Shown: positions 3,618 to 31,193 of the stretch, piece after piece | Layout of the letters: the number at the start of each line of letters is the position of its first letter | Position numbering within the stretch: the stretch's first letter is position 1 | Source: Streptantibioticus rubrisoli | GTDB taxonomy: Bacteria; Actinomycetota; Actinomycetes; Streptomycetales; Streptomycetaceae | Assembly (NCBI RefSeq): GCF_024436055.1 | Contig: NZ_JANFNH010000002.1 | Location: forward strand, 1 to 64,000 | Length of the DNA stretch: 64,000 bases | Direction: 5' to 3' | The notes under the pieces: model-generated | What the model was told of the DNA's origin: nothing | What the model saw: only the letters and a program-made list of their open reading frames with translations | The model's database searches: none | Program-made: the position numbers and the translations under genes

Positions 3618-4103
3618 GTGAGCGGTAAGGGCGCCCCAGAGCTGAGCGTGAAGAACTGTGGTGACCTGCGGGTCGCCGTGGTCGCGGCGCAGTGGCACCA
3701 GCAGGTGATGGACGGACTGGTCGACGGTGCGCTGCGCGCACTGCACGAACTGGGCATCGACGAGCCGACCCTGCTGCGGGTACCCGGCAGCTTCGAACTC
3801 CCGGTCGTCGCCAAGGCGTTGGCCGGTCGCGGCTATGACGCGGTGGTCGCGCTCGGCGTGGTGATCCGTGGCGGCACCCCGCACTTCGACTACGTCTGCC
3901 AGGGGGTGACCACCGGGCTCACCCAGGTGTCGGTGGACACCGGAGTGCCGATCGGCTTCGGCGTGTTGACCTGCGACACCGAGGCGCAGGCGCTGGACCG
4001 CGCCGGACTGCCCGGCTCCGCTGAGGACAAGGGGCATGAGGCGGTCACCGCGGCGGTGGCGACGGCGGCGACTCTCCGGTCGGTTTCCGAGCCCTGGCGC
4101 TAA
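3618..4103 (+). CDS. ribH: 6,7-dimethyl-8-ribityllumazine synthase
   Basis: Condenses the RibA-branch pyrimidine with dihydroxybutanone phosphate to give the substrate of riboflavin synthase; members assemble into 60-mer or pentameric shells. The 161 residues show the family motifs [15 protein letters not shown] and the [16 protein letters not shown] region. A GTG start follows AAGGAGAGAC. Last gene of the rib cluster; hisE follows after about 34 bases. Confidence 0.95.
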
Positions 4104-4122
4104 CTGCCGGGGCCGCAGCACG

Positions 4123-4128
4123 TAGAGT
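4123..4128 (+). promoter_or_regulatory. -10 element for a probable leaderless hisE transcript
   Basis: TAGAGT matches the TANNNT -10 of the main Streptomyces sigma factor and ends 9 bases before the hisE ATG. A start site 6-8 bases downstream would fall at or just before the ATG, giving little or no leader. No Shine-Dalgarno sequence is seen before this ATG, which agrees. Confidence 0.45.
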
Positions 4129-4137
4129 GTGACCACC

Positions 4138-4410
4138 ATGGCCAACAAGACATTCGAGGAACTCTTCGCCGAGCTCCAGCACAAGGCCGCCACCGGCGAC
4201 CCGAACACGTCGCGTACCGCCGAACTGGTCAAGGCGGGCGTGCACACCATCGGCAAGAAGGTGGTCGAGGAGGCCGCCGAGGTGTGGATGGCCGCCGAGC
4301 ACGAGGGCACCGATCGCACCGCCGAGGAGATCTCCCAGCTGCTGTACCACCTTCAGGTGATGATGGTCGCCCGGGGAATCTCCCTGGACGATGTATACGC
4401 TCACCTGTAA
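4138..4410 (+). CDS. hisE: Phosphoribosyl-ATP pyrophosphatase
   Basis: Second step of histidine synthesis: hydrolyses PR-ATP to PR-AMP and pyrophosphate. Ninety residues, the usual size of the stand-alone enzyme, with the MazG-like signature [15 protein letters not shown] and EEISQLLYH supplying the metal-binding acidic residues. I chose ATG 4138 because the protein then begins MANKTFEEL as expected, although an in-frame codon exists slightly upstream. It pairs with hisG 48 bases downstream. Confidence 0.94.
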
Positions 4411-4458
4411 GCGTCCTCTGTCCGTACGCCACCAGCACTCATCGAAGGAAGCCTTCCC

Positions 4459-5307
4459 ATGCTGCGCATCGCCGTCCCCAACAAGGGTTCTCTGTCCGAG
4501 CCTGCGTCGGCGATGCTGCATGAGGCGGGCTACCGGCAGCGCAAGGACCGCAGGGAACTGGTGCTGGTCGACGCGGAGAACCAGGTCGAGTTCTTCTTCC
4601 TGCGCCCGCGGGACATCGCCGTGTACGTCGGCTCCGGCCGCCTCGACATCGGCATCACCGGCCGGGACCTGCTGCTGGACTCCGGCGCGCAGGCCGAGGA
4701 GATCATGCAGCTCGGCTTCGCCGCCTCCACGTTCCGGTACGCCACCCGGCCCGGCACCGCCAGCAGCGTCAAGGAGTTCGGCGGCATGACGATCGCCACC
4801 TCCTTCGCCGGACTGGTCGAGAAGCACCTCGCCGACAACGGGGTGGACGCCTCCGTGGTCCACCTCGACGGCGCCGTGGAGACCGCCATCCAGCTCGGCG
4901 TCGCCGAGATCATCGCGGACGTGGTGGAGACCGGCACCACGCTGCGCAACGCGGGCCTGGAGATCATCGGCGAGCCGATCCTGGAGTCCGAGGCGGTGGT
5001 CATCCGCCGCACCGGCGCGCCCACCGACGACCCCAAGGTCCAGCAGTTCCTCCGGCGGATGCAGGGCGTCCTGGTGGCCCGGCGGTACGTGATGATGGAC
5101 TACGACATCCGGGCCGAGAAGGTCGAGGCGGCGGTCGCCCTCACCCCGGGCCTTGAGTCGCCGACCATCTCCCCGCTGCACCACGAGGGCTGGGTCGCGG
5201 TCCGCTCCATGGTGCCGTCCCGCGACGCCCAGCGGATCATGGACGACCTGTACGAGCTGGGCGCCCGTGCCATTCTGACCACCGGCATCCACGCCTGCCG
5301 CCTGTGA
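4459..5307 (+). CDS. hisG: ATP phosphoribosyltransferase, long hexameric form
   Basis: Commits PRPP and ATP to histidine synthesis and is the feedback-regulated step. At 282 residues it is the long form that carries the C-terminal regulatory HisG_C domain (about residues 205-282) and does not need HisZ. The PRPP-binding region contains VVETGTTLRNAGL, preceded by GRLDIGITGRDLL. A clear AAGGAAG ribosome site precedes the ATG. Its stop overlaps the GTG of the next gene. Confidence 0.96.
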   Translation: MLRIAVPNKGSLSEPASAMLHEAGYRQRKDRRELVLVDAENQVEFFFLRPRDIAVYVGSGRLDIGITGRDLLLDSGAQAEEIMQLGFAASTFRYATRPGTASSVKEFGGMTIATSFAGLVEKHLADNGVDASVVHLDGAVETAIQLGVAEIIADVVETGTTLRNAGLEIIGEPILESEAVVIRRTGAPTDDPKVQQFLRRMQGVLVARRYVMMDYDIRAEKVEAAVALTPGLESPTISPLHHEGWVAVRSMVPSRDAQRIMDDLYELGARAILTTGIHACRL

Positions 5308-22485: not shown

Positions 22486-22965
22486 TCAGGCGGAGTGCGC
22501 GTCAGCGGTCTCGTCGTGGATCTGTGAGGCGGCGGCGACGCAGAAGGCCTCCAGGCCCTGCAGGAGCGCGGTTCGCTTCCGGGCGGGCATCTGTGCGAGG
22601 ACGGCCTGCAGTTCACGCTCGCGGCGGGAGCGCAGATCGTCCAGGAAGGCCCGGCCTCGACTGCTGAGGTGCAGCCGCAGTTCCCGGCGGCTGGTGCTGT
22701 GCGGTGCGCGCTCGACGAAGCCCACCGCCTGGAGGCGGTCGCACAGTCGGCTCGTGGACGGGGGAGTGGAACTCAGCGCGTCGGCGAGGGTCCGCAGGTT
22801 GATTCCCTCGTTGTGTTCGAGGATGAACAGCACGCGTAGCTGGGACACGGACACCGGTGCGGTCGATGCCCGACCCCACAGGACCTCCAGCAGTTCGGCG
22901 GCCTCTGAGGCCACGCGCGCCACCTCATCGGGCTGTCGACGTGAAGGGGAGGCAGTCACGGGCAC
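22486..22965 (-). CDS. MarR-family transcriptional regulator (copy 1)
   Basis: A 159-residue winged-helix regulator. The DNA-binding core is LRTLADALSSTPPSTSRLCD followed by the wing RRELRLHLSSRG. It resembles the MarR gene at 30708-31193 (shared SRLCDRL, GRxxLDD and AAxxxG-type positions), so the two bracket the stressosome block. Divergent from the PP2C gene at 23113, which it may control. GTG start, weak ribosome site. Confidence 0.88.
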   Translation of the reverse strand: MPVTASPSRRQPDEVARVASEAAELLEVLWGRASTAPVSVSQLRVLFILEHNEGINLRTLADALSSTPPSTSRLCDRLQAVGFVERAPHSTSRRELRLHLSSRGRAFLDDLRSRRERELQAVLAQMPARKRTALLQGLEAFCVAAASQIHDETADAHSA

Positions 22966-23112
22966 ACTCTCGCAGGCTCATCGGGTGCTGTCAGCCGGTG
23001 CAGTCGGCTGGCTGGCTACCAACAATAAATACCGGTAAGCCCGGACCAAGCGACAAGGCTTACCTCGCGGGTGCGATTGCCCTCCTGGCAAAAGAATGGC
23101 TTATCCAACATC

Positions 23113-24279
23113 GTGAACAGATTCGAGGCAGCCGAGCGGGCTCTGCGGACGGCGGCTCCCCACCAGTTGCCGGACGCCGTCAGCGCGGTGCTGACCGACC
23201 GCTACGCGGCCAAGTCCGTCGACTTTCTCCTGGTGGACTACGGGCTGACCGTCCTGCAGCCGGTGACCGCGCTGCCGCACTCCGCGGAACCCGTGCCGGT
23301 GCACAACAGTCCCGCCGGTCGGGCGTTCGGCACGCAGCGGGCGGTCGTCGAGGAGGTCGACGGCGAAGGGGTGGTGACGGTCCACTGCCCGGTGACCGTA
23401 CGCGGTGACCGGCTCGGCGTGCTCTCCGTCGCGCTGCCCGCCGACACCTGCACGCCGGACCGGCTGGCCGAACTCGCGGACGTGGCCCAGGTGCTGGGAC
23501 ACGAGGTCATCGTCGCGGAGCGGGACACGGACCTGTACCTGCGGGCGCGCCGCAGGGACCGGCTGACCCTCGCGGCGGAGATGCAGTGGCAGCTGCTTCC
23601 GGGCCGCTCCTACGCCCGGCCCGAGTACGAACTGGGCGCCCATCTGGAACCGGCCTACGCGATCTTCGGCGACAACTTCGACTGGTCGGCGACCGAGGAC
23701 CGGCTGATGCTGTACGTCACCAACGGGATGGGTGAGGGTATAGAGGCCGCCCTGCTGACCAATCTGGCGATCAACGCGCTGCGCAACGCCCGGCGTGCCG
23801 GCCTGTCGATCGCGGACCAGGCCGCCCTGGCGGACCAGGCGGTCTACGCGCACTACCGCGGGGCGTCGTACCTGTCGGTGCTCATGGTGGACTTCGATCT
23901 CGCCACCGGCCGGGCGCGGGTCGTCGACGCCGGGTCGCCGCGGATGTGGCGGCTGCGGCGCGGTGGTGCCGCGCAGCCCGTCTCCTTCGAGGCGCAGCTG
24001 CCGTTGGGGATGTTCGAGGAGACCGACTACGTCGCGGAGGACTTCCGGGTGGAGCCCGGCGACCGGCTGGTGTTCGTCAGCGACGGCGTGTACGAGGCCG
24101 CCTCGCCCTCGGGCGAACGCTACGGTGAGCGGGCGCTGGCCCGGGCCATCGCCGCAACCCAGCTGCTGTCGGCGGCCGAGGTGCCGCGCGAGGTGCTCAG
24201 GCAACTCGCGGGCCACCGCGGCAGACCGGCGCCGCACGACGACGCCTTGGTGGTGTGCCTCGACTGGCACGGACGGTAG
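23113..24279 (+). CDS. PP2C/SpoIIE-type protein, paralogue A, with altered metal site
   Basis: A 388-residue protein: an N-terminal GAF-like region (about residues 20-150) ending in LYLRARRRDRLTLAAEMQWQ, then a SpoIIE/RsbU phosphatase domain. The motif normally reading DGMGxG is TNGMGEG here, so a metal-binding aspartate is asparagine. The later aspartates (FVSDGVYEA, HDDALVV) are present. It may be weak or inactive. An in-frame GTG at 23071 is possible; I prefer 23113 by comparison with the paralogue at 28662. Confidence 0.82.
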   Translation: MNRFEAAERALRTAAPHQLPDAVSAVLTDRYAAKSVDFLLVDYGLTVLQPVTALPHSAEPVPVHNSPAGRAFGTQRAVVEEVDGEGVVTVHCPVTVRGDRLGVLSVALPADTCTPDRLAELADVAQVLGHEVIVAERDTDLYLRARRRDRLTLAAEMQWQLLPGRSYARPEYELGAHLEPAYAIFGDNFDWSATEDRLMLYVTNGMGEGIEAALLTNLAINALRNARRAGLSIADQAALADQAVYAHYRGASYLSVLMVDFDLATGRARVVDAGSPRMWRLRRGGAAQPVSFEAQLPLGMFEETDYVAEDFRVEPGDRLVFVSDGVYEAASPSGERYGERALARAIAATQLLSAAEVPREVLRQLAGHRGRPAPHDDALVVCLDWHGR

Positions 24280-24342: not shown

Positions 24343-24367
24343 GCATAGCGCTTGTCAAACGGGGTAC
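24343..24367 (+). promoter_or_regulatory. Sigma-B-type promoter for the stressosome operon
   Basis: GCAT-N15-GGGTAC, an exact match to the pattern, ending about 92 bases before the rsbR-like GTG. Confidence 0.6.
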
Positions 24368-24459
24368 GACTCCGACGCCGAAGCTTGCCGTATGACAAGA
24401 AACGCACGACGTTCCGGTAGCGGGGGACGGGAACGGCGGGCACGGAGGGGAGACAGCGG

Positions 24460-24822
24460 GTGCCGGAGCACGAGACGGTAGGGCAGTGGTCGCCGTCCCG
24501 GGAGGTCGGGGACTTCCTTCACCGCTGCCGTGAACAGATCGCCCAGCGGTGGGCGGACGCGACGCTGTTCCGCACGGTGTTCACCGTCTCCAGAGACGAG
24601 GCGGTGGAAGCCTGCAAGGCCGTGATCGACGCCTTGTCCGTGGTGGCCGCCACCGAGCGGATCGAGGAGATCGAAGCACCGGGGTTCGCGGCGGTCCACC
24701 CCGGCATCGACCTCGGCTCGGTCGTCACCCGTGCCACCCTCGCCGACGCCCTGGCGCTCGCCCTGCGGCGGCAGGGCGCGGGCGCCGTCGTCGGCGCGCC
24801 CACGGAGGTGGACCTGTCGTGA
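24460..24822 (+). CDS. RsbR-type N-terminal domain protein (RsbRD_N-like)
   Basis: A 120-residue helical protein that looks like the non-haem globin-like sensor half of RsbRD (EQIAQRWADATLFRTVF) without the STAS half. In B. subtilis, RsbR paralogues join both parts; here the STAS part is supplied by the next gene, whose GTG overlaps this stop. GGAGGGGAG precedes the GTG start. Likely a stressosome sensor subunit; the ligand is unknown. Confidence 0.72.
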   Translation: MPEHETVGQWSPSREVGDFLHRCREQIAQRWADATLFRTVFTVSRDEAVEACKAVIDALSVVAATERIEEIEAPGFAAVHPGIDLGSVVTRATLADALALALRRQGAGAVVGAPTEVDLS

Positions 24823-25238
24823 CGCGCCCGTTGCCAGCGGCGGCTGGGACACACGTCCCGGTACTCACCCTGGACGACGTGCTGTTGGTGACCGTCCAGC
24901 GGAACCTCGATGACCGGGCCGCCGAGTGGCTGCGACAGGACATCGCGCGCGCGGTGACGGAGAGCACCGCGACCGGTGTGGTGATCGACGTCTCAGGAGT
25001 GGAGGTCGTCGATTCCTTCCTGGGACGGGTGCTCGCCGACATCGCCCCCACCGTCAAGCTGCTGGCGGCGCAGACCGTGCTGGCCGGAATCCGCCCCGCG
25101 GTGGCGGTCACGCTGGTGGAACTCGGCCTGACGCTGCCAGGTCTGCGCACCGCCCTCCACATCGAGCAGGCGCTGCGCCTGGTGCGAGAACCATGCGGGG
25201 CGCACGATGACACGAACCCACGACAAGGGGGCGTGTGA
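24819..25238 (+). CDS. rsbS: RsbS-like STAS scaffold protein
   Basis: A 139-residue STAS protein. It has the core pattern LDDVLLVTVQRNLDD, and the phosphoacceptor region VSGVEVVDSFLGRVLADIA with serine at the RsbS position. In stressosomes RsbS is the substrate of RsbT and holds RsbT inactive until stress. Overlaps both neighbours by four bases. Confidence 0.86.
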   Translation: MTRPLPAAAGTHVPVLTLDDVLLVTVQRNLDDRAAEWLRQDIARAVTESTATGVVIDVSGVEVVDSFLGRVLADIAPTVKLLAAQTVLAGIRPAVAVTLVELGLTLPGLRTALHIEQALRLVREPCGAHDDTNPRQGGV

Positions 25239-25678
25239 TGCACGTTCCCAGTACCGTTGCCGCAAGGTTGCCGATCGCCTCGGACATGGACCTGACCTGG
25301 ATCAGGCAGTACGTGCGACAGGTCACCGCTGAGCTCGGCTTCGGACTGGTCCAGCAGACGAAGCTGGTCACCGCGGCCAGCGAGCTGGCGCGCAACGCCC
25401 TGGTACACGGCGGAGGCGGTGAGATGGAGGTCACGCAGGTGGCACGCGGCCGGGTGCGTGGTCTGCGCCTGGTGTTCAGTGACTCCGGCCCCGGGATCGC
25501 CGACACCGAACTCGCCCTGTCCGACGGCTACACCTCCGGCGGAGGGCTGGGTCTGGGGCTGGGCGGCGCCCGGCGACTGGTACACGAGTTCACCCTCGAC
25601 AGCCGTCCGGGCCAGGGCACCACCGTGACCATCACCGCCTGGGCCTCCGAGCCCCCCGCGCCCCGCAAGGCGGTGTGA
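25238..25678 (+). CDS. rsbT: RsbT-like serine kinase
   Basis: A 146-residue GHKL/HATPase kinase. The N-box is TAASELARNALVHGGGG, the G1 box FSDSGPGIAD and the G2 region GGGLGLGLGGARRLV. RsbT phosphorylates RsbS and RsbR, is then released, and activates a PP2C phosphatase such as RsbU. ATG 25238 and a GTG one codon earlier both fit; the rsbS stop overlaps them. Confidence 0.88.
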   Translation: MHVPSTVAARLPIASDMDLTWIRQYVRQVTAELGFGLVQQTKLVTAASELARNALVHGGGGEMEVTQVARGRVRGLRLVFSDSGPGIADTELALSDGYTSGGGLGLGLGGARRLVHEFTLDSRPGQGTTVTITAWASEPPAPRKAV

Positions 25679-26721
25679 TGACTCGGGTCTGGGACGTGCC
25701 GGTGCACGACTCAACCCAGGCACACGACGTCCGCGTCGCGGTTGAGGCGGCGTGCGACCATGTGGGGCTGGGCGCTGACCGCACCGCCGACGCGGACCTG
25801 GCGGCCACCGAACTCGCCACCAACCTGCTCAGACACGCCGGTGGCGGGCGGATCCTGATCGACACCGCCGACGACGGGCGACCCGTGGTGCAGATGCTGG
25901 CCGTCGACCACGGGCCGGGCATCCGCGACGTCGCCGCCGCCCTGCGTGACGGCTACTCCACCACCACCTCGCTGGGCGCGGGCCTCGGGGCGTGCCGCCG
26001 TATCGCCGACACCTTCGACCTGCACACCGCCCCCGGCCGCGGCACGGTGGTCCTCGTCCGGATGGCCGACCGCCGCACCACTCGGCGGGCTGAGGCGGCA
26101 CCGGCCGTGCGACCGGTGCGCGTCGGCGGCGTCCATGTGCCGCTGGTGGGGGAGACCTGTGGCGACGCGTGGGCGTGCGTACCCGGCCGGGACCGGTTGA
26201 CCCTGGTGCTGGCCGATGGCCTCGGCCACGGTCCCGAGGGGGCGAGGGCTTCCGCCGCCGCCGTGGACGAGCTGCGCCGTGTGCCCGACCTGCCACCGGT
26301 GGAGATGCTGCGGCGACTGGACGACGCGCTGCGCGGGACCCGCGGAGCCGCCGTCGCCCTGGCCCAACTCGCCCAGCACACCGGCCACATGCTGTTCGCG
26401 GGCGTCGGCAACGTCGGCGCGCGCCTGCGTACGGAACGCGGCTGGCAGCCGTTGCTCTCGCGCCCGGGGATCGTCGGCGCCTACCGCCCGGCCGTCGTCC
26501 CCGAGCGCCAACTGCCCTGGAAGGACGGCGGTCTGCTGATCCTGCACAGCGACGGCCTCCCCAGCCGCTGGGCCCCGCCTGAGGACTCGTACCTGGACCA
26601 CCGGGACCCCGCCGTGATCGCCGCGGTCGTCCTGCGCGACGCCAGTAGTTCAGCACGCCCAGCGCGTGACGACACTACGGTGGCCGTCATGGCCTCCACA
26701 CCACGGGACCGCCCGCTATGA
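25678..26721 (+). CDS. HATPase-PP2C fusion (RsbT-like kinase joined to RsbX-like phosphatase)
   Basis: A 347-residue two-domain protein. Residues 1-130 form a GHKL ATPase with N-box ATELATNLLRHAGGG and G1 box DHGPGIRD. Residues 145-340 form a PP2C domain with LADGLGHG, LHSDGLPSR and RDDTTVAVM, so all metal aspartates are present. RsbX removes phosphate from RsbS and RsbR to reset the stressosome, and this domain probably does so. The kinase half may compete with or balance RsbT. Confidence 0.84.
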   Translation: MTRVWDVPVHDSTQAHDVRVAVEAACDHVGLGADRTADADLAATELATNLLRHAGGGRILIDTADDGRPVVQMLAVDHGPGIRDVAAALRDGYSTTTSLGAGLGACRRIADTFDLHTAPGRGTVVLVRMADRRTTRRAEAAPAVRPVRVGGVHVPLVGETCGDAWACVPGRDRLTLVLADGLGHGPEGARASAAAVDELRRVPDLPPVEMLRRLDDALRGTRGAAVALAQLAQHTGHMLFAGVGNVGARLRTERGWQPLLSRPGIVGAYRPAVVPERQLPWKDGGLLILHSDGLPSRWAPPEDSYLDHRDPAVIAAVVLRDASSSARPARDDTTVAVMASTPRDRPL

Positions 26722-28607
26722 CCCCTACCCGCGCCTGGACTGTCGCCAGCGCCTGCGACGCGGCACTCGCCCGTAGCGCCGTGGCGCGCCTCGCCGCGGC
26801 CGCGGGCATGCCCACCGTCGAACGCGCCCGGCTGCTGGCCGGGTTGAGCGCGCGGTTGAGGCGGTGTCTCGAACAGCCCGCGGCGGCCTGGCAGTTGGTG
26901 TTCGAGGTGATCTGCGCCCCACCGCACGGTGAAACCGGACGGTTCCGGCTCAGCCTGCGTCCGACCGGCCAGAACCGGTCGGACGCGTCCTGGCAGACGG
27001 TCGTCGAATGTCCCGACCCCGAGGCCGCTGCCCGCGAGGCCACGCAGCCGGACGTTCCGCTCGCCGAGGCGCTGCTCCTCGCGGACGACGACACCGCCGC
27101 GCTCCTGGACCACCTGGACGAGCAGGAGCGGCTGGTCAGTGTCCACCGGGAGGAACTGCACCAGACCAATCAGGGAGTCCTCGCCCTCCACGCCGAACTG
27201 GACGCGGCCGACCGGACGCAGCGCGAGCTGCTCGCCGCGGAGAAGGCCGCCCGTGCGGAGGCGGAGGGCGCCCGCCACCGGCTGACCTTCCTCGCCGACG
27301 CCAGCGCGGCCCTGACCGCCTCGCTCAGCCACCGGGAGATCCTCCGCCGCCTGCCGGAACTCCTCGTACCGCAACACGCGCGCACCGCCGAGGTGTGGCT
27401 GTTCGATGACGACGGTCCCGACACGCGTGCTCCGCATCCCGCGGCCGCCGTCGTCGCCGCACGCACCGGGCGCCCGCAGTACGCCGCGGACCACCCCGGC
27501 CACCTGCCGGGCGTCGAGAACCTGCCGCCCTCCGCGCTGGCCCCCAATGTGCCCCTTCTGTGTCTGCCGCTGACGGCCCGCCGCTCCACGCTCGGAGTTC
27601 TGACGCTCACCGCGCCGGGCGACCGCTTCGACAGGGACAACACCGTCATGCTCATCGAACTCGCCCGCCGAGCCGGGATCGCGATCGACCACGCCCTGCG
27701 GTACGAGCACAACCGCGACATCGCCGAAACACTGCAGCGCACCCTGCTCACCGAACTGCCGGTCACCGCGGGACTCCAACTGGCCGCGCGCTACCTGCCC
27801 GCCACCCACGGACTGAACATCGGCGGCGACTGGTATGACGCGTTCGCCCAGCCGGACGGCAGCCTGATCGCCGTCATCGGCGATGTGACCGGGCACGGCC
27901 TGCACGCGGCGGTCATGATGGGGCAACTGCGCAACGCGCTGCGCGCCTACGCCGTGGACGGCGACTCGCCGGGACGGCTCCTGACCCGGCTGCACCACTT
28001 CCTCCACCACCTGGAGCCCGACCTGTGCGCCACCGCGGCCATCGCCCGCTTCCGGCCCGGTGACCCCACCGTCACCTGGGCGGCAGCGGGCCACCCGCCG
28101 CCCGTGGTGCGTACCTGCGAGGGACGGGTACGGGTCCTGGACGCCAAGCCCGGGGCCATGCTCGGCATTCCGCTCGGGCAGGGCATCAAGGACCACACGG
28201 TGGAACTCCCGCCCGGCTCGACCCTCGCCCTTTACACCGACGGCCTGGTCGAACGCCGCAGGCAGGGGATCGACCCGGGCATCGCCCGCCTCGGCGCGGT
28301 GCTGGCCGGGCTCGGCTCGGCGGAACTGGCCCGGGACCTGGACGGGGCGGCCGAGGCCGTACTGGGGCGCATGCTGCACGACTGCGACCGTGAGGACGAC
28401 GTGTGCCTCCTGCTCTGCCACACCGGTTCGGAACCGGTCGTCACCCCTGCCGCACCGGATCCGCACAGGCGTCCTCGCCAACCGGCGGCAAACGCACCGG
28501 GCCCGCAGCGGTCGGCCACCTCACCTCCGCCCACCAGCGAGACGGCGGGCGAGGACGCGAACGGGGCCTGGGCACCACCGCTGGTCGCCGACGACGCACA
28601 GGACTGA
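26718..28607 (+). CDS. GAF-PP2C phosphatase with coiled-coil N-terminus
   Basis: A 629-residue protein. The first 190 residues are helical, with a probable coiled coil around residues 130-190 (rich in Ala, Glu, Arg). A GAF domain follows (about 195-330), then a SpoIIE/RsbU phosphatase domain (about 345-560) with GGDWYDAF, IGDVTGHGLHAAV, YTDGLVERR and EDDVCLL all intact. This is the likely output phosphatase acting on STAS proteins. A Pro-rich tail ends the protein. Start overlaps the preceding stop. Confidence 0.86.
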   Translation: MTPTRAWTVASACDAALARSAVARLAAAAGMPTVERARLLAGLSARLRRCLEQPAAAWQLVFEVICAPPHGETGRFRLSLRPTGQNRSDASWQTVVECPDPEAAAREATQPDVPLAEALLLADDDTAALLDHLDEQERLVSVHREELHQTNQGVLALHAELDAADRTQRELLAAEKAARAEAEGARHRLTFLADASAALTASLSHREILRRLPELLVPQHARTAEVWLFDDDGPDTRAPHPAAAVVAARTGRPQYAADHPGHLPGVENLPPSALAPNVPLLCLPLTARRSTLGVLTLTAPGDRFDRDNTVMLIELARRAGIAIDHALRYEHNRDIAETLQRTLLTELPVTAGLQLAARYLPATHGLNIGGDWYDAFAQPDGSLIAVIGDVTGHGLHAAVMMGQLRNALRAYAVDGDSPGRLLTRLHHFLHHLEPDLCATAAIARFRPGDPTVTWAAAGHPPPVVRTCEGRVRVLDAKPGAMLGIPLGQGIKDHTVELPPGSTLALYTDGLVERRRQGIDPGIARLGAVLAGLGSAELARDLDGAAEAVLGRMLHDCDREDDVCLLLCHTGSEPVVTPAAPDPHRRPRQPAANAPGPQRSATSPPPTSETAGEDANGAWAPPLVADDAQD

Positions 28608-28661
28608 CCGACCGAGCACCCGACTATGGGCCCGAAACGCCCCGAACAGGACGTGGACGCT

Positions 28662-29879
28662 GTGACCGACGCTGAACGGCGAACGACCGCCGAGGCCGTA
28701 CTGCGCGCGGCCGCGCCGCACGCACTGATCCCCGCCGCGCAAGGTCTGCTGGCGGATCGGGCGGGCGCGCGGTCCGTCACGTTGCTGATGGCCGACTACG
28801 GTTCGGCGGTGCTGCAACCCGTGCCGCAACCGCCGGAGGGCGCCGAACAACTGCCCGCTCACCACGGTCCGCCCGGTCGGGCCTTCTCGGCCCAGACACC
28901 CGTGGTGGAGGGCACCGACGACCCGGCCGTCGTCCTGGCCCATCTACCGGTCACCGTGCGGGGCGACCGGTTGGGAGTGCTCCGCGTCGAACTGCCCCGA
29001 GCCAACGCCGACGCCGCCGCCCTCGCCGAGTTGGCCGAGTTCGCCACCGCCTTGGGCCACGAACTGCTCACCGCGGACCGGGACACGGACCTGTATCTGC
29101 GAGCCCGCCGCCGCAAGCGCCTGACGCTCGCCGCGGAAATGCAGTGGCAGTTGCTGCCCGGCCGGGGCTGCGCCCGCGACGAGTACGTCCTCGGGGCCCA
29201 CCTGGAGCCCGCCTACGCCATCGGCGGCGACAACTTCGACTGGTCCACCAGCGCCGACCACCTCATCGTCACCCTCACCGACGGCATGGGTCAGGGAATG
29301 GACGCGTCACTGCTGACCAGCCTGACCGTCAACGCGCTGCGCAACGCGCGCCGCGCCGGGGTCGGCCTCGCTGACCAGGCCAGCCTCGCCGACCAGGCGG
29401 TCTACGCCCAGTACCGGGGCCTGGCCTACGCGTCCACCGTGCTTCTGCGCTTCGACCTCGACACCGGTCTGGTCCACGCCGTCGACGCGGGCTCCCCGCG
29501 GGTGTTCCGCCAGCGCGGCGCGAGCGTCGAACTCGTCGAATTGGAAGGCCAGTTGCCGCTCGGCATGTTCGAGGAGACCCAGTACGAGGAGCAGACCTTC
29601 CACGTCGTCCCGGGCGACCGGCTGGTCATCGTCAGCACCGGTGTGCACGGCGCGCGCTCGGCGGAAGGCGTGTTGTACGGCGAACGGGCACTGTCGCGCT
29701 CGATCAGCGCGTCCCGGCTCGCCACCCCGCACGAGACGGCCCGGGCGGTGGTCCACGGACTCGTCGAGCACTTCGGCAGCGACGACCTCGTCGCCGACGC
29801 CGCGGTGATCTGCCTGGACTGGAAGGGCCGGGTCAGCACCCAGCGCACCGATCCGCGGCCTTCGTCCGTATCCACCTGA
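28662..29879 (+). CDS. PP2C/SpoIIE-type protein, paralogue B, probably catalytically impaired
   Basis: A 405-residue paralogue of the gene at 23113, colinear over nearly its whole length (both share DTDLYLRARRR, AAEMQWQLLPGR and ADQAVYA). It keeps TDGMGQG, but the later motifs read VSTGVHGA and LVADAAVICLD where active enzymes have aspartates (DGxxE, DDxT). It is therefore likely a pseudophosphatase. GTG 28662 has AGGA upstream; ATG 28626 is an alternative. Gap of 54 bases from the preceding phosphatase gene. Confidence 0.8.
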   Translation: MTDAERRTTAEAVLRAAAPHALIPAAQGLLADRAGARSVTLLMADYGSAVLQPVPQPPEGAEQLPAHHGPPGRAFSAQTPVVEGTDDPAVVLAHLPVTVRGDRLGVLRVELPRANADAAALAELAEFATALGHELLTADRDTDLYLRARRRKRLTLAAEMQWQLLPGRGCARDEYVLGAHLEPAYAIGGDNFDWSTSADHLIVTLTDGMGQGMDASLLTSLTVNALRNARRAGVGLADQASLADQAVYAQYRGLAYASTVLLRFDLDTGLVHAVDAGSPRVFRQRGASVELVELEGQLPLGMFEETQYEEQTFHVVPGDRLVIVSTGVHGARSAEGVLYGERALSRSISASRLATPHETARAVVHGLVEHFGSDDLVADAAVICLDWKGRVSTQRTDPRPSSVST

Positions 29880-29926
29880 GCGCTTGGGCATCGCGTAACC
29901 ACGGCTGCTCGCCCTGTGATCACAAC

Positions 29927-29950
29927 GAGTTGGCACTGGTCGGTGGGTAG
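29927..29950 (+). promoter_or_regulatory. Sigma-B-type promoter for the RsbW-like gene
   Basis: GAGT-N14-GGGTAG. A second overlapping match (GGGT-N14-GGGTAG, 29945-29968) lies just downstream. Either would give a leader of about 60-80 bases. Confidence 0.5.
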
Positions 29951-30032
29951 TGCCACGTGGGCGGGTAGACGCTCACGTACCAGGGCCGCCGGACACTCAC
30001 TTGGAGGATCGAGAGAGGGGCGGGTAACTGCC

Positions 30033-30464
30033 ATGGCCGCGATTGGGGTAGTCGACAGCCATATGCCGTTGCTGAGTTGGCGCAGGGCCTACGGAGCCCG
30101 CGACCCGGATGCCATCGCCGCGGCGCGTGACTTCGCTGTGGAGTTCTTGGAGCATGCCCGGCGCGTCCTGCGCGCCCCGCTCGCCGACCGGGTCTTTCAG
30201 GACGTCCAACTCGTGGTCAGTGAACTGGTGACCAACACCGCCAAGTACGCTCCGGGTCCGTGCGCGGTGAGCCTGGCCCTGGCGCCTGGTGGGATCGACG
30301 TCACGGTCTGCGACAGCAACCCCAGTGTGCCGCGGTCCGCGCCGCAGGACCCGGACCGCGTGGGCCGGCACGGCTTGGAGATCGCCGCCGCGCTCTCCGA
30401 GTACATGTTCACGTGGCGCCACGCCGCCGGTAAGTGCGTTCGTGCCCGTATTGCTCTGAGTTGA
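30033..30464 (+). CDS. RsbW-like HATPase (anti-sigma kinase type)
   Basis: A 143-residue GHKL ATPase domain with N-box LVVSELVTNTAKYAPG and G1-like VTVCDSNPSVP, followed by DRVGRHGLEIAAALSE. Proteins of this kind in Streptomyces either bind a sigma factor directly (RsbW) or serve other partner switches. Its position in the locus makes it the best local candidate for the anti-sigma factor. ATG 30033 chosen; the frame is open upstream. Confidence 0.8.
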   Translation: MAAIGVVDSHMPLLSWRRAYGARDPDAIAAARDFAVEFLEHARRVLRAPLADRVFQDVQLVVSELVTNTAKYAPGPCAVSLALAPGGIDVTVCDSNPSVPRSAPQDPDRVGRHGLEIAAALSEYMFTWRHAAGKCVRARIALS

Positions 30465-30530
30465 CATGGTTTGGATGTGGGGCATACACCAGCCGGGCGC
30501 CACATCGGTCCCCGCGCACCGGCCTGGCCC

Positions 30531-30555
30531 GCTTACCTCCCGGTTCCTTGGGTAC
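30531..30555 (+). promoter_or_regulatory. Sigma-B-type promoter for MarR copy 2
   Basis: GCTT-N15-GGGTAC, an exact match, about 153 bases before the chosen ATG. Confidence 0.5.
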
Positions 30556-30707
30556 GGCGCCAGGACGCGAACAAGTGCCTGCCTCGACTTCAGCGGAGAG
30601 AGTTCCTGTGCCGTACCGTGATGGCATCGCTGCCGGTGAGATGGGATTGGCCCGGTCGCATGCGGGCCGCCGCGCCACGTACAGCCCTGGCGGAGGATGA
30701 GTGGCCC

Positions 30708-31193
30708 ATGGGCTTTGGCCAGATTCCGGGGCCGCGTCCAGAGGAGTCCGCCGAGCGGATATCCGGTGCCGTGCAAGAGCTCGTCGCGGTGTGGTCGAAC
30801 GCCTTCCATCACGCGGCCCCACGCGTTTCCACCCTGCAACTGCGGGCGCTGGAAGCCGTGGAGCACCAGCACAAGCCCAACCTGACCGGTCTGGCAACCG
30901 AGTTGGAGATCGGCATGCCCACTGCCAGCCGCCTGTGCGACCGCCTGGAGGCGGCAGGGTTCCTGGAACGTTCCGTTCAGCCGCGCAACCGGCGGGAGGT
31001 GCTGCTGGCGGTCACCAGGCAGGGCAGGCGGCTGCTTGACGACGTGGCGGCACGACGGCGTAGATCGCTGGCGGCCGTCCTCACGGCGATGGATCCCGAC
31101 GACCGTGCGGCGCTTGTCCGGGCGTTGCAGGCTTTCCTGGCCGCGTCCGCGACGGCACGGGCCCGAGGGACGCGCGGCGCCGGGAACGACTAG
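30708..31193 (+). CDS. MarR-family transcriptional regulator (copy 2)
   Basis: A 161-residue winged-helix protein with the recognition region LATELEIGMPTASRLCDRLE and wing RREVLLAVTRQG. Paralogue of the MarR gene at 22486-22965. I start at ATG 30708, with GGAGGA about 12 bases upstream; other in-frame ATG codons lie further upstream. Ends the stress locus. Confidence 0.85.
   Translation: MGFGQIPGPRPEESAERISGAVQELVAVWSNAFHHAAPRVSTLQLRALEAVEHQHKPNLTGLATELEIGMPTASRLCDRLEAAGFLERSVQPRNRREVLLAVTRQGRRLLDDVAARRRRSLAAVLTAMDPDDRAALVRALQAFLAASATARARGTRGAGND

Follow-up and report, generated by a model that had tools for sequence, protein, structure and literature searches.

A stressosome module with a GHKL-fused RsbX that has very likely lost rsbR through an in-frame deletion in Streptantibioticus rubrisoli

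Stressosome modules of the RSTX type occur in several phyla and carry RsbX, a single-domain PP2C phosphatase, directly after rsbT (PMC9237108). We analysed a 64,000-nt stretch of DNA of Streptantibioticus rubrisoli (hereafter the window, meaning that whole stretch), which belongs to a draft genome of 7.26 Mb in 103 contigs and contains a stressosome operon of five genes. An earlier note on this DNA had read the operon as one in which the sensor is detached from its STAS domain and a second kinase domain is fused to the resetting phosphatase, so that a single polypeptide might control both activation and reset. We consider it very likely that the operon is the known RSTX module, with a GHKL-fused RsbX and an RsbU-like output, whose rsbR was lost here by an in-frame deletion of 178 codons. 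The closest operon-bearing relative, Streptomyces sp. RPT161 (locus L033/L077; hereafter the sister), was used as the main reference; the genome of the window belongs to a group represented here by three species.

The five genes were consecutive on the + strand and overlapped by 4, 1, 1 and 4 bases in order, in agreement with the overlaps of four bases or fewer described earlier. Pfam assigned to them, in the same order, a weak RsbRD_N match, STAS, HATPase, HATPase_c_2 with SpoIIE, and GAF with SpoIIE. These domains bore out the previous identification of RsbS and RsbT, of a fusion of GHKL with PP2C, and of a GAF-PP2C protein, as did PDB matches for RsbS and the RsbX-like PP2C. The first gene had been placed from 24343, where a stop interrupts the frame before 24460; the actual start is the GTG at 24460, located behind GGAGG, and the sister species has the same start residue. 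The features of the operon are as follows (evidence in brackets).

24460..24822, + strand: rsbR remnant of 120 residues, RsbR codons 1-78 joined in frame to about the last 41 codons (sister comparison, Pfam, AlphaFold)
24691..24699, + strand: deletion junction, residues 78-80, A-V-H (alignment to the sister RsbR)
24819..25238, + strand: rsbS, STAS protein, with Ser66 equivalent to B. subtilis Ser59 and a GTGA overlap with the rsbR remnant (Pfam, alignment, PDB matches)
25238..25678, + strand: rsbT, GHKL switch kinase with intact N, G1 and G2 box residues (Pfam, alignment)
25678..26721, + strand: RsbX-type feedback phosphatase, with an RsbT-like GHKL domain at about residues 12-130 and PP2C/SpoIIE at about 160-340 (Pfam, alignment, PDB matches)
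26718..28607, + strand: RsbU-like output phosphatase, with a beta-alpha-alpha-beta-beta N-terminus, a long coiled coil, GAF, and PP2C with intact metal ligands (Pfam, model)

The 120-residue product of the first gene aligned to both ends of the 298-residue RsbR of the sister: its residues 1-80 matched the N terminus (89%) and its residues 79-118 the C terminus (77.5%). The length difference between the two proteins corresponds to 178 codons missing in frame from the middle of rsbR. The sister RsbR consists of RsbRD_N and STAS by Pfam, and its RsbRD_N match covered profile positions 3-103 (63 bits), whereas that of the remnant covered only positions 3-68 of 104 (28.8 bits). Because of this truncated match, the first gene, which had been described as RsbRD_N-like, is so in part only: it encodes the N- and C-terminal ends of an RsbR, brought together by a deletion, rather than an intact RsbRD_N protein. 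The Pfam search of the remnant gave no STAS match, and its C-terminal residues (about 41) correspond to the tail of the STAS domain. The deleted part comprised the final third of RsbRD_N, the linker and almost the whole of STAS, together with the equivalents of both known phosphosites, which are conserved among 99 relatives (T186 in 98 and S/T223 in all 99). Thus, neither the complete RsbRD_N sensor nor the C-terminal STAS domain with Thr phosphosites of an RsbR co-antagonist was present. In the AlphaFold model of the remnant, the predicted local distance difference test score (pLDDT) was 71-88 over residues 11-70, which form helices, and 34-51 from residue 71 on. Between the stop codon of the remnant and the start of rsbS there is still a four-base overlap, which the sister has too. 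Both sister sites that correspond to the junction contain TCGTGC, a direct repeat of 6 bp. Deletions of this sort arise at such short repeats, and this one presumably did so here.

We found this deletion in none of the relatives examined. The RsbRD_N profile matched in 92 of 200 genomes of the family, always in open frames of at least 206 residues with the exception of that of the window (133 residues). When the remnant itself was used as query, 98 of 395 genomes matched, and the only match to the whole query in a single stretch was the window's own. A full-length RsbR (279-321 residues) was present in 80 of 80 named loci, and all 99 RsbR loci extracted for alignment were also full-length. A further set of 20 loci included one rsbR with a nonsense codon (L176) and one broken by an assembly gap (L175); both were considered as designed splits and rejected, given the gap of N in L175 and the single stop codon in L176. 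In the latter (genome G094), RsbR at 3939-4799 has one in-frame stop between the sensor and STAS parts and is otherwise full length, which may be a natural nonsense mutation or a sequencing error. A detached sensor as a conserved split form was also discarded, as the family surveys showed no second protein joined across the junction. Detachment of the sensor from STAS as a design, the reading of the earlier note, is therefore not supported: the protein is an RsbR that has lost its interior and kept its STAS tail, and the relatives have an ordinary fused RsbR. We also looked for a second RsbR elsewhere in the genome with the RsbRD_N and STAS profiles and found none; there was one RsbRD_N protein, and the other STAS proteins were small or transporter-sized. 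RsbS was single-copy in the genome.

Some observations weigh against a simple loss of rsbR. The retained RsbR pieces have not changed faster than those of the sister (branch ratio 1.06), their ratio of non-synonymous to synonymous substitution (dN/dS) is near 0.2, with 0.115 in the N-terminal part, and the reading frame and the coupling to rsbS are kept. An unaccelerated remnant fits a recent deletion, but it also fits a remnant that is still under selection. Moreover, the genome is a draft and the breakpoints share 6 bp in the sister, so that the strain might carry an intact rsbR from which the assembler removed the middle at the short repeat. We give this very little probability: the deletion site sits inside a 356-kb contig, and in two other species the RsbX-position gene has in-frame internal deletions of a similar kind. 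A repeat of 6 bp is also far below the usual assembly k-mers.

The low dN/dS of the N-terminal part and the unchanged rate of the retained pieces, together with the intact frame, a good ribosome site and the kept rsbS coupling, would likewise suit a true split stressosome, in which the 120-residue protein is a functional free-standing sensor acting on a core of RsbS only. This, too, seems to us very unlikely, given that the second half of the remnant is a STAS tail and no separate domain, that the last third of the RsbRD_N profile and the STAS body are absent, that the form was found in no relative, and that the C-terminal part was modelled with low confidence. In Mycobacterium marinum, RsbR no longer binds RsbS once its STAS domain has been removed (PMC8115616), and for this reason the remnant should not bind RsbS. 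Since, in addition, B. subtilis strains without RsbR paralogues show constitutive signalling (PMC3944199), a constitutive or decaying pathway is predicted, and not a redesign.

The deletion of rsbR can be placed in a mechanism by analogy with the Bacillus pathway. In the intact relatives, the RsbR-RsbS STAS core would hold RsbT, which under stress would phosphorylate the core and then leave it and activate the GAF-PP2C protein; the PP2C domain of the hybrid would most likely reset RsbS-P and RsbR-P, and its GHKL domain would dock on, or re-phosphorylate, a STAS partner. In the window strain, the remnant, without the STAS body that contacts RsbS and without both Thr phosphosites, could not enter a stressosome, and as the RsbR STAS is missing, assembly of the complex is not expected. 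RsbS alone would not hold RsbT properly and RsbT would be free, so that the GAF-PP2C protein would be switched on without a signal, or the module would be heading to decay, with constitutive or lost signalling. Probably, then, this strain has a stressosome that is broken or always on, and not one of new design.

The other components appeared intact. RsbS contained a STAS domain (PF01740, E 7e-13) with Ser66 conserved in 98 of 98 sequences, and its best PDB sequence matches were RsbS proteins (6jhk, 6qcm). RsbT, a stand-alone GHKL protein directly after rsbS, retained the N, G1 and G2 box residues, which were conserved in 98 of 98. In the hybrid, the N, G1 and G2 boxes and the metal-binding aspartates of the PP2C domain were all intact; the GHKL part was RsbT-like (profile comparison, 99.3%), and among solved structures the PP2C part matched only the Moorella stressosome phosphatase (3zt9) and B. 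subtilis RsbX (3w40). The hybrid thus combines, by sequence, the PP2C closest to RsbX, intact Asp residues and the position after rsbT in an RST cluster. The order RsbR-RsbS-RsbT-hybrid was conserved in the relatives examined, and a Pfam-confirmed RsbRD_N-STAS RsbR and a HATPase-SpoIIE hybrid were found beside RsbS-RsbT on plasmids of Deinococcus, Phaeobacter, Sphingomonas and Streptomyces fungicidicus. Judged by its domains and position, the hybrid is what such modules ordinarily carry at the RsbX position in several phyla, and it is not peculiar to the operon of the window. The fusion of a kinase domain to the resetting phosphatase, which had been singled out as a feature of this operon, is real and has intact motifs, but it is widespread at the RsbX position. 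In the literature searched, we found no description of a GHKL-RsbX fusion within a stressosome operon, which does not prove that there is none. In one Streptomyces group (L078:10744-12243, L087:10744-12276 and similar), the hybrid carried about 150 or more extra residues between the kinase and the phosphatase, forming a Gly/Pro/Ala-rich linker without a Pfam domain.

In the intact relatives, the hybrid might alternatively act not as RsbX but as a second output arm for another STAS protein, as in Rv1364c, a role that is compatible with the rsbR deletion. Both catalytic domains keep intact motifs and partner-switching fusions of kinase and phosphatase exist (Rv1364c RsbU-RsbW, PDB 3ke6); we nevertheless regard this role as rather unlikely, given the RsbX structures matched by the PP2C domain, with no RsbU among solved structures, an RsbU-type PP2C already encoded by the next gene, and the position right after rsbT, which is the place of RsbX in RSTX modules (PMC9237108).

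The PP2C domain of that next gene (26718-28607) was of the RsbU type, with the RsbU domain of Rv1364c as top sequence and structure match (Z 25.9, root mean square deviation 3.1 over 226 residues). Pfam gave no match in this protein at E 1 to RsbU_N, the domain that binds RsbT. Its N-terminal 110 residues (26718-27062) had no Pfam match, were modelled as beta-alpha-alpha-beta-beta and showed weak similarity to the RsbT profile (29% probability), a faint hint of a degenerate GHKL domain where RsbU_N would otherwise be; in the structure search with the model of the whole protein, the PP2C domain filled the match list.

Regarding the fate of the module after the loss of RsbR, we found that RsbS (2.6x), RsbT (2.9x) and the hybrid (1.7x) had changed more quickly along the window branch than along that of the sister, with 33 versus 13 polarised changes (P 0.005). 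Relaxed selection after the loss is only suggestive, because the downstream PP2C showed the same acceleration (2.1x) and the difference from the GAF-PP2C protein was not significant (P 0.12). Other species that carry this type of locus next to the upstream PP2C paralogue have a hybrid, RsbS or GAF-PP2C gene that is shortened or has been lost. In particular, we identified in-frame internal deletions of the hybrid in S. toyocaensis (L132:10465-10809) and Streptomyces sp. 1-11 (L153:10747-11112). In each of these, the first 52-69 residues are fused to roughly the last 60, and the product that remains has about 115-125 residues. These cases suggest that internal deletion is a recurring fate of this operon type, in numbers too small to claim selection; three of about four deletions were in frame, too few for a test of bias. 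Another locus (L133, Streptomyces spinosus) retains rsbR and rsbT but lacks rsbS, the hybrid and the GAF-PP2C gene.

The rsbR deletion could also be adaptive, which we consider improbable: it would free RsbT from RsbR and keep the translational coupling of rsbS-rsbT-rsbX, and a switch gated by stress would become constitutive or gated by the hybrid. If it were so, repeated in-frame deletions, of rsbR here and of the RsbX-position gene in two other Streptomyces, would be a common route of stressosome rewiring.

Two PP2C paralogues flank the operon; cross-matches with the copies in the sister put the identity between the two at about 58%.

23071..24279, + strand: upstream conserved PP2C-like protein, context, second metal-ligand Asp changed to Asn (Pfam, alignment)
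28626..29879, + strand: downstream PP2C-like paralogue, context, metal ligands SDG changed to STG and DD to AD (Pfam, alignment)

The two have lost different metal ligands, and the upstream change from Asp to Asn in the second motif was also found in 27 of 29 relatives; the pair has the appearance of conserved phosphatases that are altered or inactive. The whole locus lies between two related MarR-type regulators (22486-22965 on the - strand and 30471-31193 on the + strand), in the same arrangement as in the sister, and an RsbW-like HATPase gene was located at 29916-30464.

On our reading, what seems to be a modular redesign of the stressosome is a common module in damaged form, which corrects a tempting misreading. 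A natural RsbR deletion, with no other RsbR found in the genome and a close intact relative, could show whether RsbS alone restrains RsbT outside Bacillus. The fused GHKL-RsbX, common and without a dedicated study in the literature searched, merits biochemistry in a species with an intact module.

Compared with known systems, Rv1364c of M. tuberculosis resembles the hybrid in uniting a SpoIIE-type PP2C and a GHKL kinase in one partner-switching polypeptide. It differs in domain order and in partners, which are of the RsbU-RsbW type, and it is not the RsbX-position gene of an RST operon. With RsbR, RsbS, RsbT, RsbU and RsbX of Bacillus subtilis, the module shares the functional parts and the phosphosite residues; there, however, RsbX is separate at the end of the operon, which includes a sigma factor, and RsbU has RsbU_N where the output phosphatase of the window has a coiled coil and GAF. 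The RSTX module (PMC9237108) is alike in gene order, RsbS, RsbT, the phosphatase right after rsbT, close spacing and a downstream output gene, but its RsbX is single-domain, whereas those of the window and of the relatives examined carry an N-terminal GHKL domain, and the RsbR of the window is internally deleted. Finally, the operon on plasmid p1 of Streptomyces fungicidicus (CNQ36_RS32305 to RS32285) has the same five genes, order and kind of overlap, with a fused 'ATP-binding SpoIIE family protein phosphatase'; unlike that of the window, its RsbR is intact, with 296 residues comprising RsbRD_N and STAS.

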